A program made the translations under genes and the position numbers. From Pseudobythopirellula maris (GTDB lineage Bacteria > Planctomycetota > Planctomycetia > Pirellulales > Lacipirellulaceae): 64,000 nt of DNA. The stretch covers positions 784,279 to 848,278 of the forward strand of contig NZ_SJPQ01000002.1 in the NCBI RefSeq assembly GCF_007859945.1, read 5' to 3'. The notes beneath the pieces are model-generated. The model was given only the letters and a program-made list of their open reading frames with translations, had not been told where the DNA came from and made no database searches. Shown here one piece after another: positions 25,620-35,551 of the stretch; within the stretch, counting starts at the first letter, position 1; each line of letters opens with the position of its first letter.

Positions 25620-25768
25620 CCACGGCTGTTGCTGTGCCATCCCCCCAGTTTGGGTGTCTGCTGCAAGAATCGCAGCGATCTTTTGGGCGCAGCTAGGTGA
25701 ACAAACCTGCCGTCGGAGGACCTGACGGCTTAGCTGTACTTGTTCAGAATCTTATGAGGAGTGCTTCG

Positions 25769-27388
25769 ATGCGGCGTATTTTGTTTGCCTTGCTGCCGGC
25801 TTTGGCCCTGCTGGCGGCTCCGAGCTTGGCTGAGGCCTGTTCGTCGTGCGGCGGCGATTGTGGATGTGCGGCGACCTCCGACTGCTCCGGCGGTTGCGAA
25901 GGCGACGCCGGCTGTGGCGACGCGGGTTGCGGTGGGTGCGCCCAGGCGGCCCCGGCGATGGTCACCAAGACCATCTACGTGCCGACCCAAGTCACCGAGC
26001 TTCGCACGGTCAGCTCGACCGAGTACCAGAAGGAAGAGCGCGAGCGGACCTACACGGTCTACACCCGTGTTCCGACGACCGAGACCAAGACCCGCACGTA
26101 CACGGTCATGGTCCCCGAGACCAAGACCAAGACCGTCGAGTACACGGTCATGAAGCCGGTCACCGAGACCAAGACGGCTGAGTACACCGTTCGGGTCCCG
26201 TACACCGAAGAAGTCGTGCAGACCTACACCGCCATGGTGCCGGTCCAAGAAGAGATGACCAAGACCTACACGGTCATGGTCCCCTCTTACGAGGAGAAAG
26301 AAGTTGAGTACACCGTGATGACCCCGGTCCAAGAAGAGATGACCAAGACCTACACGGTCATGGTCCCCTCTTACGAGGAGAAAGAGGTCGAGTACACGGT
26401 GATGACCCCCGTTCAAGAAGAGAAGACCTCGACCTACACCGTGCAGGTCCCGTACACCGAAGAGGTCGAGCAGACCTACACGGTGAGCGTTCCTTACACC
26501 GAAGAGATGACCGGCTCGCGCACCGTGACCAAGCGTGTTCCTGTCACGACGATGAAGACCGTTACGGTCAACGGCGGCCACTGGGAAACCCAGATGGTTG
26601 AGGTTGGCTGCGGCTCCGGTTCGGCCGGCGGCTGCGGTGGGTGTGGCGACTGCGGCGGCTGCGGCTCGTGCGGCGGATGCGGCTGTGCGACCAAGACCGT
26701 TTGCAAGAAGGTTTGGGTCCCCTCCTGCGAGACCAAGGAAGTTCCTTGCACCACGTACGAGTGCGTGACCGAAGAGGTGCCTTACACCTACACGGTCTGC
26801 AAGACTCGCACCGAGGATCGCACCCGCACGGTCAACGTGACCAAGTGCCGCTCGGAAGAGCGCACCAAGACCTACACGGTCACCAAGTGCGTCCCCGAGA
26901 CCAAGACCAAGACCGTCAAGGTCTGCAAGATGGTCCCCGAAGAGCGCACCAAGACCTACACGGTCACCAAGTGCGTCCCCGAGACCAAGACCAAGACCGT
27001 CAAGGTCTGCAAGATGGTCCCCGAGGAGCGCACCAAGACCTACACGGTCACCAAGTGCGTCGCCGAGGAGCGTGAGCGCACCGTTCAGGTGACCAAGTGT
27101 CGCGACGAGGTTCGCACCCGCGAGTACAACGTCACGACGTGCGTCCCCGAGACGATGACCAAGGAAGTCACGTACACCGAGTGCGTGCCGACCGAGAAGA
27201 CCGAAGAGTACACGGTCACCACTTACGAGTGCGTGCCCGAGGAGAAGACCTCGACCTACACCGTTTGTGTGCCGGTCACGGTCGAAAAAGAGGTTGAGGT
27301 CACCGTCTGCAAGATGGTCGCCCAAGAGGTCGAGGTCGCCGCTCCGTCTTGTGGCGGTTGCGGTTCGTGCGGCGGTTGCTGCAACTGA
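25769..27388 (+). CDS. YTV-repeat exported protein, Cys-rich
   Basis: A 539-residue planctomycete YTV-family protein. The ATG at 25769 has AGGAG 7 bases upstream and gives a signal peptide (MRRILFALLPALALLAAPSLAEA). A Gly/Cys cluster follows (about 24-60), then about 20 repeats built around TYTV with Thr/Glu/Lys/Val, a central Gly/Cys block (about 278-315), a second repeat array in which Cys appears regularly (VTKC, KVCK), and a final GGCGSCGGCCN tail. The repeats predict a long beta fibre, with Cys for cross-linking in the second half. Function is unproven; a surface or S-layer/cell-wall structural role is plausible. The gene has its own promoter and a very strong terminator, consistent with high expression. 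Confidence 0.92.
   Translation: MRRILFALLPALALLAAPSLAEACSSCGGDCGCAATSDCSGGCEGDAGCGDAGCGGCAQAAPAMVTKTIYVPTQVTELRTVSSTEYQKEERERTYTVYTRVPTTETKTRTYTVMVPETKTKTVEYTVMKPVTETKTAEYTVRVPYTEEVVQTYTAMVPVQEEMTKTYTVMVPSYEEKEVEYTVMTPVQEEMTKTYTVMVPSYEEKEVEYTVMTPVQEEKTSTYTVQVPYTEEVEQTYTVSVPYTEEMTGSRTVTKRVPVTTMKTVTVNGGHWETQMVEVGCGSGSAGGCGGCGDCGGCGSCGGCGCATKTVCKKVWVPSCETKEVPCTTYECVTEEVPYTYTVCKTRTEDRTRTVNVTKCRSEERTKTYTVTKCVPETKTKTVKVCKMVPEERTKTYTVTKCVPETKTKTVKVCKMVPEERTKTYTVTKCVAEERERTVQVTKCRDEVRTREYNVTTCVPETMTKEVTYTECVPTEKTEEYTVTTYECVPEEKTSTYTVCVPVTVEKEVEVTVCKMVAQEVEVAAPSCGGCGSCGGCCN
26243..26410 (+). repeat. 84-bp tandem duplication in the YTV gene (first array)
   Basis: Two nearly identical 84-bp units (26243-26326 and 26327-26410) encode a 28-residue module starting VQEEMTKTYTVMVPSYEEKE. 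Only a few silent differences separate them, so the duplication is recent and keeps frame. Confidence 0.9.
26855..27022 (+). repeat. 84-bp tandem duplication in the YTV gene (second, Cys-bearing array)
   Basis: Two nearly identical 84-bp units (26855-26938 and 26939-27022) encode a 28-residue module starting EERTKTYTVTKCVPETKTKT with two Cys. The unit length equals that of the first array although the sequence differs. Confidence 0.9.
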
Positions 27389-31451: not shown

Positions 31452-32456
31452 ATGCCAGCCACGCCCGAAGCCCTCGACCGCCTGCCGCGCTTGCGGCTCG
31501 GCAAGCTGCCGACGCCGCTCGACGAGGCGCCGCGGCTCACGCGGCTGCTCGGCGGCCCGCGGCTGCTGGTCAAACGCGACGACCTGACCGGCCTCGCCAC
31601 GGGCGGCAACAAGACGCGCAAGCTCGAGTTCCTGGTGGCCGACGCGCAGGCGGCGGGGTGCGACGCGCTGATCACCGCCGGCGGGCCGCAATCGAACCAC
31701 TGCCGCCAAACGGCCGCCGCCGCGGCGATCGCCGGCATGGAGTGCCACTTGGTGCTCGGCGGCGACGACCAGCCGCCCATCGGCAACTCGCTGCTCGACC
31801 TGCTGCTCGGCGCCACGCTGCACTGGACCCCCAAAGAGCGCCGCAACGCCCGCATGGACGAGCTGGCCGAAGAACTCCGCACGGCGGGCAAGCGGCCGCG
31901 GGTGATCCCGGTCGGCGGCTCCACGCCGCTCGGCGCCGTCGGCTACGTGGCGGCGATGTTCGAGCTCGTGGGGCAGCTCGCCGAGCGCGACCTGCGCGTC
32001 GATCACCTGCTGCTCGCCACGAGCTCGGGCGGCACGCAAGCGGGCGTGGTGCTCGGCGCTCGGCTCGCCGGGTTCACCGGCAAGGTGACGGCGATCAGCA
32101 TCGACCAAGTTGCTGACGCTGACTCCGACGAGAAGTTTATCGAAGGCGTGTGCGGCATGGCCAACGGCGCCGCCGAGCTGCTCGAGTCCGAGATACGCCT
32201 CACGACCGACGACTTCGCGACCAACTACAACTACCTGGGCGGCGGCTACGGCGTGGTCGGCGACCCGGAACGCGAGGCGATCCGGCTCTTCGCCCAGAGC
32301 GAGGGCCTGCTGCTCGGCCCGGTCTACACCGGCCGCGCGGCGGGAGCGATGATCGACCTGGTCCGCCGCGGCGCGTTCGGCGAGGACGAGACGGTCCTGT
32401 TCTGGCACACCGGCGACGAGTCGGCGCTGCACGCCTACGCGGCGGAGCTGGCGTAG
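31452..32456 (+). CDS. D-cysteine desulfhydrase / ACC deaminase-family PLP enzyme
   Basis: A 334-residue fold-type II PLP enzyme. The Schiff-base Lys is K54 in LATGGNKTRKLEF, followed by the family loops TAGGPQSNHCRQTAAAAA, VIPVGGSTPLGAVGYV, and SSGGTQAGVVLG (phosphate binding). It is closest from memory to D-cysteine desulfhydrase/ACC deaminase, releasing sulfide or ammonia with pyruvate or 2-oxobutanoate; the exact substrate cannot be decided. It is divergent from the sulfatase gene with a 169-base spacer. Confidence 0.88.
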   Translation: MPATPEALDRLPRLRLGKLPTPLDEAPRLTRLLGGPRLLVKRDDLTGLATGGNKTRKLEFLVADAQAAGCDALITAGGPQSNHCRQTAAAAAIAGMECHLVLGGDDQPPIGNSLLDLLLGATLHWTPKERRNARMDELAEELRTAGKRPRVIPVGGSTPLGAVGYVAAMFELVGQLAERDLRVDHLLLATSSGGTQAGVVLGARLAGFTGKVTAISIDQVADADSDEKFIEGVCGMANGAAELLESEIRLTTDDFATNYNYLGGGYGVVGDPEREAIRLFAQSEGLLLGPVYTGRAAGAMIDLVRRGAFGEDETVLFWHTGDESALHAYAAELA

Positions 32457-32556
32457 GGAACCATGACGGCGCGACGAGCACGATGGTCGAATTGCAGCCA
32501 GGTCAACGCTCTGCGAACGCTAGCGTAAGGCGTAATCCCAACTAAAGCATCGCCGG

Positions 32557-32695
32557 GTGTAATCCAATCGTCCGCTGCGGTGCTCTGATTACAGAACACA
32601 GTTGCAATGGATCGCTTGTGGCAGGGCAGGAAGTCCCCACTGGGTTCTTACAGCCTGTTGGTCACGCGGCAACGCGTGGCCAACAGGTTTTTTTT
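32557..32695 (+). ncRNA. Putative small RNA cassette, copy A1 (with terminator)
   Basis: The 139-base element shares its whole length with a second copy at 33171-33310. Both start GTGTAATC, share a conserved core (GGATCGCTTG, GGCAGGGCAGGAAGTCCCCACTG), and end in a hairpin plus T-run. The terminator here is a 15-bp stem with one G-T mismatch pair (32654-32668 and 32673-32687) followed by eight T. No ORF is conserved between copies, while the hairpin is. No promoter was confidently found. Family unknown. Confidence 0.6.
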
Positions 32696-33007
32696 GCCCA
32701 GACGGCGACCGGCTCCGCGACGCCCGCCCACCCCCGCTCGGCCGTGGGTCGTGGGCTCGTGGGATCATGGGTCGCCCAGGTTTTTCAAACCTGGGTCGCC
32801 GCAGGCGACAAGAAGCATCGCGGCGGGCGTGGCCACAGGGAAAGCCACGAATCATGCCGCGTCTTGCGACGGCTTCTTGTGGCTCCGCCACACCGGTTCA
32901 AGAACCGGCGCCACCCGCTTGGGGCCAAGATCTTGGCCGATCACCCAGTGCTTTGCCCTGGGCTGACATATCGGGCCCCCATTGGGACTGACTACTGACG
33001 CCGCGTA
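32696..33007. other. Non-coding spacer between cassette A1 and repeat B1
   Basis: No gene with plausible start and composition. Several short GC-rich self-complementary stretches (for example CCCAGGTTTTTCAAACCTGGG near 32776-32796) are present. Confidence 0.4.
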
Positions 33008-33099
33008 GGGTGGCCGGGGTCGGAGGCGTCAGCCGCAGCCCCCGGATTGAGCCGATTGGTGATTACCCGGGGGCTCCGCTTCGCTGCGACCCCGGGCAC
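33008..33099. repeat. Dispersed repeat B, copy 1
   Basis: The 92-base unit is nearly identical to 33528-33619. Both begin GGGTGGCCGGGGTCGGAGGC and end in GCGACCCCGGGCAC. Internal self-complementarity (CAGCCCCCGG with CCGGGGGCT) predicts a hairpin. Confidence 0.85.
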
Positions 33100-33170
33100 C
33101 CCGGCGCCGGGCGTGTCGCCACGTTGCTAGCATCTCAAGCCGCCTGGAACCCCAGATTTATCTTAGGGTC

Positions 33171-33310
33171 GTGTAATCTCCTAGCCCCCCGTGCGCTTTA
33201 GTTACAGGACGCAGTCGCAACGGATCGCTTGAGGCAGGGCAGGAAGTCCCCACTGAGTTCTTATTTTGCCTGTTGGCCACGCGGCAGGGCGTGGCCAACA
33301 GGCCTTTTTT
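33171..33310 (+). ncRNA. Putative small RNA cassette, copy A2 (with terminator)
   Basis: The second 140-base copy of the element at 32557-32695. The terminator stem is perfect (33268-33282 with 33289-33303), with T-run to 33310. The loop differs from copy A1 (GGCAGG against GCAA), and a T-for-C change in A1 turns one pair into G-T, so pairing is preserved despite change. Confidence 0.6.
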
Positions 33311-33527
33311 ATGCGCGGGCGCCGATCAATCGGACATGCGGGGCGGCAAAGGGAGTTGCCCGTTCTTGCATATCGAGGCTAGCCGCTTCCGGCCCGAAGG
33401 GCCGCTCTACGATAGCCCAGGGCATCGCCCTGGGACCGAGGGGGAAAGCTTTGCACCGATCCCAGAAGGGGCATACTACGCCGGCCCTTAGGTAGAACGC
33501 CCCATTGGTGCTGACGGCGACGCACAG

Positions 33528-33619
33528 GGGTGGCCGGGGTCGGAGGCGTTAGCCGCAGCCCCCGGATTGAGCCGTTTGGTGATTCCCCGGGGGCTCCGCT
33601 CCGCTGCGACCCCGGGCAC
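33528..33619. repeat. Dispersed repeat B, copy 2
   Basis: The copy of repeat B downstream of cassette A2, with about five substitutions from copy 1. The order A1-B1-A2-B2 shows that an A+B unit was duplicated; the spacer between A2 and B2 (33311-33527) has no gene. Confidence 0.85.
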
Positions 33620-33649
33620 TCTACGCCAGGCGTCAGCCGCTCACTGGAC

Positions 33650-34238
33650 TCAATAGTTCATGTATTTATCGGGAATAGGACGCGGAAAATTGTCCTCAGG
33701 TAAATCACGAGAAAACTCATAGCTAGATGTGATAGCGCCGCCACTCGCAAACCTTGACATAAATGTCGCTGCCCCCAGGAAGCAGTCGGATAGGCATCCA
33801 CCAGACGACTTGGAGTACAGGCAACCTCCATGGGCTGTCACCGTACTTTCCCCATCTATAGTTGAATACCCTGCAAGAAGCGGGTAAGTAGAAAATACGA
33901 AAATAAAGTCAATTGCAACCGAATCCGGGTCTGGTAATTCAAAGCACTCAATTTCGGCGTGCAGCAAGTCCCTAAGTTCGCAGTGATTCTTCTGCGCATA
34001 CGGAGAAATCTTTTTTGACGCGAAATCAACTAGTTCGTCTTTGAATTCTTCGGTGTCGAGTTTTGGTGCTTGCCCACGAATAGCGTCTAAGCATTCCGGG
34101 AGATTAGTATGGAATGTAATGCTGGTGCCAAGCAGGCTACAGTCGCTAGATAGGTTGTCGGCGAGCTGCGGAGAGGTTGAATTCCGATTCTTGCAAAACC
34201 CTTTGTCAGCGCTGACGAAGTGAACGTCATGCTCTTTA
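33650..34238 (-). pseudogene. PIN-domain protein, C-terminal part (split by IS)
   Basis: This is the 3' part of the gene whose 5' part is at 35088-35551. Minus-strand translation starts EHDVHFVSADKGFCKNR, the last acidic strand of a PIN fold, then continues about 180 residues with an acidic, Ser/Cys-rich C-terminal domain and ends PIPDKYMNY. Removing the IS and one TTA target copy joins the halves in frame as LQLSK-EHDVHF and restores a 349-residue protein. GC is low for the genome, suggesting acquisition. The separate start at 34282 lies inside the IS and is unlikely to be natural. Confidence 0.88.
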
Positions 34239-35087
34239 GAGGTTGTCCAATAACTGCTATATGAGTGATTCGCCGCAGTCACTACCCTCCGCGGTATGAG
34301 CAGGAAGCCCTACCCAACCGACTTGACGGATCACCAGTGGCGACGGATGAAGCCCTGGGTTCCCGTTGACGCCGCCACCGGTCGGCCGTCGAAGTACACG
34401 AAGCGTGAGATCATCAACGCGATCCTGTACGTCACCCGCAACGGCTGCACCTGGCGTGCGTTGCCGCACGACCTGCCGCCCTATCGGATCGTATTCCACT
34501 GGTTTCGTAAGTGGCAGGCCGATGGGACCTGGGAGCGGGTCCATGAGAAGCTCCGCGACCGAGTTCGCAAGAAGGCGGGCCGGACGGCGAAGCCTTCCGC
34601 CGCAGTGCTCGACAGCCAGACCATCAGGACGACCGAACAAGGCGGGCCGCGTGGCTACGACGCCGGGAAAAAAAGCTCTCGGCCGCAAGCGGCACGTTGT
34701 CGTTGACACGCTCGGGCTGGTCTGGTCCTTGGTCGTCACGCCCGCCGACGTGCAGGACCGCGACGGGGCGAAGCTGGCCCTCAAAGCGTTCCGTGAGTCG
34801 GTGAAGTTCCCCAGGGTCATCTGGGCCGACACGGCGTACCGCTCGGTCGTTGATTGGGCGTGGGTGAAATGGCTCTGGGCAGTCGAGATTGTCACGCGGC
34901 CTCGCGGTAAGTTCGTACTCCAGAAGAAACGCTGGATCGTCGAACGGACCTTTGGCTGGCTGAACCGATCACGCCGCCTCGCCAAAAGCTTCGAACGGAC
35001 CGTCGAGAGCGACACCGCCTTCGTCCAGATTGCGATGATCCACCTCATGGTCAAGCGGCTATGATATCGCCCTTATTGGACAAGCTC
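34239..35087 (+). mobile_element. IS5-family (IS427-like) insertion sequence, 849 bp
   Basis: Terminal inverted repeats GAGGTTGTCCAATAA (left) and GAGCTTGTCCAATAA (right, reverse complement) bound the element. A 3-bp target duplication TTA lies at 34236-34238 and 35088-35090, fitting the TNA preference of the IS427 group. It encodes one DDE transposase in two frames and splits a PIN-domain gene. One copy is in the window. Confidence 0.95.
34296..35064 (+). CDS. IS5-family DDE transposase, two frames
   Basis: The first frame (34296-34706) gives the N-terminal helix domain (LTDHQWRRMKPWVP, NAILYVTRNGCTWRALPHDLPPY) and the first catalytic Asp (AVLDSQTIRTTEQGG). The second frame continues GKKALGRKRHVVVDTLGL with the second Asp (WADTAYRS) and the Glu (WIVERTFGW) to the stop at 35064. 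The switch lies at a run of seven A (34668-34674); a +1 step, or six A, would give GYDAGKKALGRKRH, matching the family. It may be made by slippage on the A-run or may be a disabling mutation. Confidence 0.85.
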
Positions 35088-35551
35088 TTAGAAAGTTGGA
35101 GTACAGCTTGCCAGATGGCTGAGTCCTTGAATTGTTGATTCTTGTCACCGTTGGGGGGCAACTTGCGCTCAACCATGTCCAGCGCTGCTATCGCATGTTC
35201 GTGAGTAAATGGAACTCTAACAAGGATTTTATTGAGGTCGGAGATACGGTCGTGAATCACCGCTTCAAGCTCGGACTGCTCAGGCTGCGAGAAAGTGAAT
35301 TCCCCCTCAGATAATGCACTCAACACTCTGCCTTTGTCGGATATAGAATCGGCGGCGTCCTGGGCATGCTTCAACATGTGTTGCACGGTTTCGCCCTCAA
35401 CTATTTGAGGGAATCCGATCTGCGCATGGCGTCGTCTGATGGCATAAACAAGCGACTTCCCAACATAGGATTGGAGAAGCAACTCTCTGATCCAGATATT
35501 TGTGTCAAGAACAACACAGAGCGGCTTGGAGCTTATTGAGTTAATTGTCAC
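35088..35551 (-). pseudogene. PIN-domain protein, N-terminal part (split by IS)
   Basis: The N-terminal 154-155 residues of a PIN (DUF4935-like) protein. CVVLDTNIWIREL holds the first acidic residue, GFPQIVEGETVQHM the second, and NQQFKDSAIWQAVLQLSK the third. The intact frame then runs into IS sequence and stops (SNKGDIIAA). With the C-terminal part at 33650-34238 the fourth acidic strand (VSADKGF) is restored. PIN proteins are usually RNases, often toxins or defence proteins; no antitoxin gene is seen next to it. Confidence 0.88.

Follow-up and report, generated by a model that had tools for sequence, protein, structure and literature searches.

Tandem or sibling small RNAs are known in bacteria, among them PrrF1/PrrF2 and OmrA/OmrB. 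The window analysed here, a stretch of 64,000 nucleotides from the planctomycete Pseudobythopirellula maris, contains two similar, adjacent units (A1 and A2) which resemble these siblings in their size of about 100-140 nt, in having terminators of their own and in carrying no ORF. They differ from them in that no homologs were found and in that their flanks have diverged past recognition.

A second described system concerns one of the repeats lying next to the A units. Acido-Lenti-1 (RF01687) appears in Table 1 of Weinberg et al. 2010 (PMC2864571) among candidate non-coding RNAs, and the paper gives Acidobacteria and Lentisphaerae as its source. Elements of this type are listed as non-coding RNAs in a genome paper (PMC10059132), and they may regulate adjacent genes according to a paper of 2026 (PMC13298647); the available portions of these last two papers contain no link between Acido-Lenti-1 and a transposase. 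Based on the accessible part of the 2018 survey of Y1 HUH transposases (PMC6006769), proteins with the signature Y---Q--HH constitute subclass 1.2, which occurs mostly in Cyanobacteria and Bacteroidetes and is generally without typical terminal IS200 hairpins. Class 3 of the same survey, found in planctomycetes and acidobacteria, possesses atypical flanking hairpins with up to ~600 copies in one genome; its signature is a different one (Y----Q), and its hairpins have a CnGA foot (PMC6006769, same part). In R. baltica, repeats adjoin such transposases, as stated in the available text of PMC3733652. The word "Rfam" is absent from the main text of PMC6006769, and in the searches of open-licence papers no link between RF01687 and RAYT was found.

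The features of the two A units, in order of position, were identified as follows:
32557 to 32695, plus strand: A1, candidate small-RNA gene of 139 nt, delimited by alignment with A2
32582 to 32650, plus strand: conserved core of A1, 87% identical to the A2 core over 69 nt
32653 to 32695, plus strand: intrinsic terminator of A1, hairpin and T-run (terminator scan; pair probability 0.97-1.0)
33171 to 33310, plus strand: A2, paralogous candidate small-RNA gene of 140 nt, delimited by alignment with A1
33195 to 33263, plus strand: conserved core of A2, paired with the A1 core in the alignment
33268 to 33310, plus strand: intrinsic terminator of A2, 15-bp stem and T-run (terminator scan; pair probability 0.99-1.0)

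Pairwise alignment revealed homology of A1 and A2 over their full length, with a global alignment score above that of all 500 shuffles. The duplication of the A unit is real, and the common start, core and end which the first-pass annotation had ascribed to two units of about 140 bases are borne out by the end-to-end alignment. The terminator blocks (32653-32695 and 33268-33310) are 88% identical over 43 nt. The local alignment starts at GTGTAATC and runs to about 13 nt past the T-run. Beyond these limits the observed alignment scores were equalled or exceeded by 164 of 500 shuffles for the 50 nt upstream, 188 of 500 for the 100 nt upstream (where the A2 side takes in part of the repeat B1), 394 of 500 for the 73 nt downstream and 202 of 500 for the 54-nt spacer preceding the repeat B. 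Since homology is confined to A and the flanks are shuffle-like, the similarity of A1 and A2 is outlined like a transcript. Within the units divergence is uneven: 12 of 23 positions differ in alignment columns 9-31, a segment picked after the alignment had been inspected, versus 16 of 118 elsewhere (Fisher p = 1.3e-4). Columns 32-94, on the 5' side of the terminator linker, differ at 7 of 63 positions and are 89% identical.

The strong hairpin and T-run previously noted at the end of each copy were both recovered by the terminator scan. The accompanying statement that the pairing survives base changes holds in so far as the terminator stem contains two pairs which stay paired after a change on one side only (G-U to G-C and U-G to C-G), but a two-sided change between A1 and A2 was present at none of the 41 pairs predicted by RNAalifold. 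Whole A1 and A2 have more stable folds than their shuffles (z = -5.10 and -3.21, respectively); this excess is due to the terminator, since the leading 94 nt by themselves are indistinguishable from shuffles in stability (z = -0.20 and +0.17). The lowest-energy folds of the isolated cores (59 and 60 nt) of A1 and A2 are nearly alike, with a stem formed by AGRAC/GUUCU and CAGU/ACUG. These isolated folds do not stand out from shuffles (z = -0.82 and -0.25, with 45 of 200 and 69 of 200 shuffles equalling or surpassing them), and when A1 and A2 are folded at full length, the pairs of the shared structure model, which is that of RNAalifold with four weak pairs omitted, have probabilities of no more than 0.02 in A1 and 0.0 in A2. 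The terminator stems are the only near-certain helices, by pair probability, among the helices tested. These predictions suggest that only the terminator is clearly structured, and structure outside it is poorly supported. If A acts as an RNA, its core would, as far as these tests show, be kept in sequence rather than in fold.

The absence of a conserved ORF, also noted earlier, was upheld. The single frame common to A1 and A2 reads DRLxQGRKSPLxSY; it was ruled out as a gene because it is broken by a 2-base indel, has an ATG in A1 only and differs between the copies mostly by replacements. No sigma-70-type promoter site was identified in 32400-33700, a result that says little as shuffles average just 0.2 sites, and host promoters may differ.

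The main rival explanation arises from the position of A1, which starts 100 nt past the stop of a PALP-fold gene (31452-32456) on the same strand. A1 would then be the 3' UTR and terminator of that gene and A2 a duplicated, perhaps non-functional copy, which implies no independent small RNA. The failure of the scan to find a promoter-like site agrees with this, as does the terminator being the only clearly structured part of A. A bare 3' UTR, however, has no need of the identity seen in columns 32-94, and no evident gene immediately precedes A2 on its strand. Moreover, eight relatives with a close PALP-fold homolog (58-70% identity) contain no A-like sequence in the ~5.7 kb downstream of it. 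The 7-kb stretches compared in these relatives run from ~0.2 kb before to 5.7 kb after the gene, with proteins upstream of the gene out of view, and within them none of six other window proteins queried was found; the weak matches to the A model at PALP-fold relatives were one of 12.2 bits within that gene (L147) and another of 5.5 bits. Taken as a whole, the 3' UTR explanation is considered rather unlikely.

The own genome, at 5.07 Mb and 96.5% completeness, contains two copies of A. These two, A1 and A2, served to build a covariance model (R1), and with permissive settings its extra matches in the own genome were confined to the opposite strand of the A hairpins and to one locus, L154, which at 16.8 bits and E = 1.7 is of no weight. 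A blastn search of 58 other genomes, in each of which at most 14 candidates were scored, detected no A homolog at E <= 0.001, and neither did R1 in 395 other genomes of the order with strict Infernal filters and no more than 8 scored candidates in each. Using permissive filters, R1 gave matches at E <= 5 in 6 of 39 other genomes of the family, the best with 32.1 bits and E = 5.9e-4. Loci L184 and L185 match through the terminator hairpin and loci L188 and L189 by weak partial pairing, while L186 and L187 (E = 0.11 and 0.70, respectively) lie antisense to an ORF resembling a DEAD-box helicase, a label which is a reading of its letters; none of the six is a convincing homolog spanning core and terminator. 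The genomes shown in the search tables include none from the genus of the window, so that restriction of A to the species and restriction to the genus are indistinguishable.

Other collections were searched as well. A 23-mer of A had 0 matches in genome contigs, and an 18-letter pattern with 17 fixed bases hit 69 genome-contig stretches, all of which were scored by the covariance model with 11.2 bits as the best result. A1 had no blastn match in the plasmid collection, and one 27-letter A pattern was absent from viral contigs. No Rfam family reached its gathering score on A, and relaxing the threshold to E <= 5 added just two weak overlaps that fall far short of the cut-off; no tRNA or tmRNA was found in the window. 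The covariance-model check proposed at the outset returned no convincing homologs, and a family of two members precludes a real covariation test.

As a separate observation, L186 (1501-1625) and L187 (1501-1550) contain a DEAD-box-like motif, GFLPDLKRIVAAV, whose antisense is weakly similar to the A core, probably by chance.

Alternatively, A may be the decayed remains of another sequence, such as one lying antisense to a coding gene, with the duplication as the sole cause of the likeness between its copies. The weak matches antisense to the DEAD-box-like ORF lend something to this explanation, together with the antisense frame of A, which reads SGDFLPCxKRS. Their E-values, however, are expected by chance over 39 other genomes, the resemblance extends over ~11 residues only, stops are present in the antisense frame of A2, and the own genome yielded no comparable core match apart from the weak one at L154. 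Given chance-level E-values and so short a resemblance, a core antisense to a DEAD-box gene was judged to be chance, and the decayed-fragment explanation is regarded as very improbable.

The reading of A1 and A2 as lineage-restricted, paralogous, intrinsically terminated candidate small-RNA genes is given about an even chance. It is based on the sharp 5' start, the conserved core, the intrinsic terminator, the diverged flanks and the lack of an ORF. In this form the original proposal of an unannotated small-RNA family accounts best for A, but just two members are known, both of them here, and structure past the terminator is unsupported. A1 and A2 would be two paralogous transcription units, each yielding a non-coding RNA of ~140 nt with its 5' end near GTGTAATC and its 3' end at its own intrinsic terminator, the hairpin of which would serve as a stable 3' end. 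Such an RNA would most likely act in trans via the conserved core GGATCGCTTGNGGCAGGGCAGGAAGTCCCCACTG, by base-pairing with mRNA or by protein binding. The elements between and after the A copies, namely B, R and Acido-Lenti-1, are dispersed and form no part of the RNA.

These elements and the associated flank are located as follows:
32769 to 32922, no strand assigned: R, dispersed inverted-repeat element (BIME-like), in unit 1 only (repeat matches)
32938 to 32962, no strand assigned: probable Acido-Lenti-1 hairpin remnant of unit 1, matching 33410-33434 at 20 of 25 nt and not reported by Rfam at E <= 5
32977 to 32992, no strand assigned: short flank upstream of B1, which pairs with 33500-33515 and lies beyond the limits of similarity to the remaining copies of B
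33008 to 33099, no strand assigned: B1, dispersed palindromic repeat (element ~33003-33115; repeat matches)
33390 to 33434, minus strand: Acido-Lenti-1 (RF01687), REP-like repeat (Rfam 40.3 bits, gathering 37)
33528 to 33619, no strand assigned: B2, second local copy of the dispersed palindromic repeat, with 96% identity to B1 over 92 nt (repeat matches)

A 92-base repeat following each A had been described, and B1 and B2 do exist with the identity given above, but B is not specific to A and is dispersed genome-wide without it. Besides B1 and B2 there are at least 18 further match rows in the own genome (40 of 139 candidates scored), and B is present in 6 of 58 other genomes. R has at least 26 further own-genome match rows among the 47 obtained from the same 40 scored candidates, and some of these represent both strands at a single place. 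Several of the R rows are clustered at C4:144287-144844. The notion of a linked repeat as part of a cassette was consequently abandoned: B and the other repeats occur without A, and the local order of A, repeat and B was merely co-duplicated. With two copies in the own genome against the at least 18 further match rows for neighbouring repeats, A is not itself a dispersed repeat.

Where other B copies match over their full length, similarity sets in at ~32998-33008, so that the match between 32977-32992 and 33500-33515 falls outside the mobile element and points to a trace of local duplication. This flank match and the order A, Acido-Lenti-1, B common to both units indicate one local duplication. 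The two units would have originated by a single duplication of the stretch containing A, Acido-Lenti-1 and B, after which R would have been gained by one copy or lost by the other. The flanks would then have diverged past recognition, with the core and terminator held at 87-88% identity, presumably by purifying selection. It counts against this explanation that B1 and B2 are more alike than A1 and A2, so that conservation within the duplication is not highest in A. A single clock does not account for 96% identity in the B copies, 87% in the A core and unrecognisable spacers; our guess is that B1 and B2 owe their likeness to local gene conversion.

Surrounded by three kinds of dispersed repeats and near an IS, A could itself be a non-autonomous mobile or REP-like element which has just two copies here. 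No convincing further copy was found in the own genome or in the relatives searched, however, no terminal repeats of A were seen besides the terminator hairpin, and the order of elements shared by both copies fits duplication better than two insertions. A mobile origin of this kind is therefore thought improbable.

Downstream of B2 the following features were identified:
33650 to 34282, minus strand: second PIN piece, a plausible C-terminal part (no Pfam match; reading of its letters)
34238 to 34262 and 35064 to 35088: ends of an IS5-like element, 25-nt inverted and 84% complementary
35051 to 35551, minus strand: PIN_12 piece (PIN_12 match)

The IS5-like element between the PIN pieces has transposase domains in two overlapping frames and was apparently inserted in a minus-strand PIN_12 gene (33650-35551). 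Both components of the PIN-domain/IS hot spot suggested in the first annotation are hence present, but they read as an IS in a gene. The PIN stretches are ~46-53% GC, compared with ~67-75% around them, and the PIN gene is for this reason probably foreign; PADLOC gave no match on either piece. A1 and A2 are convergent to the PIN gene, and no tie between A and this gene was found. Elsewhere in the window, 25697-27388 is occupied by an ORF of 563 aa with highly repetitive Y-T-V-x-V-P and C-rich units, and a long open frame is present on the opposite strand as well.

The Acido-Lenti-1 copy on the minus strand at 33390-33434 covers positions 1-46 of the 46 in the RF01687 model. With a score above the cut-off and both hairpins present, it agrees with the element as described in the available part of PMC2864571, while the copy number, inverted pairs and Y1 transposase neighbours observed here depart from that description. 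RF01687 is carried by 29 of 39 genomes, with at least 9 matches in the own genome and at least 84 in the richest (G014); 117 candidates were scored per genome and the figures may be lower bounds. Among the matches listed, a minus-strand copy is followed by a plus-strand one at least 15 times, the two starts being separated by 144-169 bp. A second copy in the own genome (G000:C1:990284-990329) precedes the Y1_Tnp (PF01797) domain at C1:990360-990704 by 31 nt, and a partial copy lies ~180 nt downstream of that domain.

The association with such genes was investigated using 33 Y1_Tnp loci (L155-L183 and L040-L043), mostly the best match per genome. RF01687 was found in 15 of them, which include loci among L162-L182, and was absent from 18. 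All 24 elements in these loci, which extend up to 1500 nt on either side, lie 8-304 nt from the domain. As a control, 20 of 30 loci from the PALP-fold search were scored, and RF01687 occurred in 1 of 20, this being the window's own locus, and in 0 of the 19 others. The difference between 15 of 30 Y1 loci (three own-genome loci without a match being left out) and 0 of 19 controls is significant (Fisher p = 1e-4). RF01687 was present in 13 of 20 loci with a Y---Q--HH protein versus 2 of 10 others (p = 0.05), and 13 of the 15 flanked Y1 genes have this signature. None of the seven highest-scoring Y1_Tnp loci (L155-L161) contained it, and these probably encode true IS200-type transposases. At the four Y1 transposase loci of the own genome, Acido-Lenti-1 was the only query with a match, in L040; B, R and A had none at E <= 0.01, and B or R as partner of these four genes was rejected on that basis.

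Two-sided changes hold 8 of 13 hairpin pairs of Acido-Lenti-1 among 16 copies, picked from the 25 listed by their match to the structured model, which favours the result; the shuffle mean is 3.0 and 0 of 500 shuffles reach 8. Paired changes of this kind are equally compatible with DNA and RNA hairpins, and a transcribed role may be possible. Because it is adjacent to Y1 transposase genes, multi-copy and arranged in inverted pairs, Acido-Lenti-1 looks like a REP-type partner of HUH (Y1) transposases. It shares with REP/BIME and RAYT (TnpA-REP) systems, as far as the available parts of PMC3733652 and PMC6006769 describe them, high-copy hairpin repeats, inverted pairs and a flanking HUH Y1 gene. 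Unlike REP/BIME, the copies listed have no constant GT[AG]G foot, so that the element is REP-like and not a canonical GTAG REP. It also differs from RAYT systems in that most of the flanked genes carry the signature which the accessible part of PMC6006769 assigns to subclass 1.2.

On balance, a reading of these sequences slightly favours Acido-Lenti-1 being not primarily an RNA gene but a REP-like DNA hairpin repeat of Y---Q--HH (subclass 1.2) Y1 HUH transposases, with which it would form a REPtron of a type not yet named that lacks a GTAG foot, with A1 and A2 as an orphan, lineage-specific small-RNA pair born and duplicated amid such repeats. Small RNAs of planctomycetes seem to have been little studied, judging from the titles in a literature search. 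If the reading is true, A1 and A2 are a very young small-RNA gene pair, which would be useful for studying the origin of such genes. The Acido-Lenti-1 result may outweigh A1 and A2 in importance. If true, the database label of Acido-Lenti-1 as a non-coding RNA would need correcting, and a hairpin partner would be supplied for a transposase subclass which the available part of PMC6006769 describes as generally without one.
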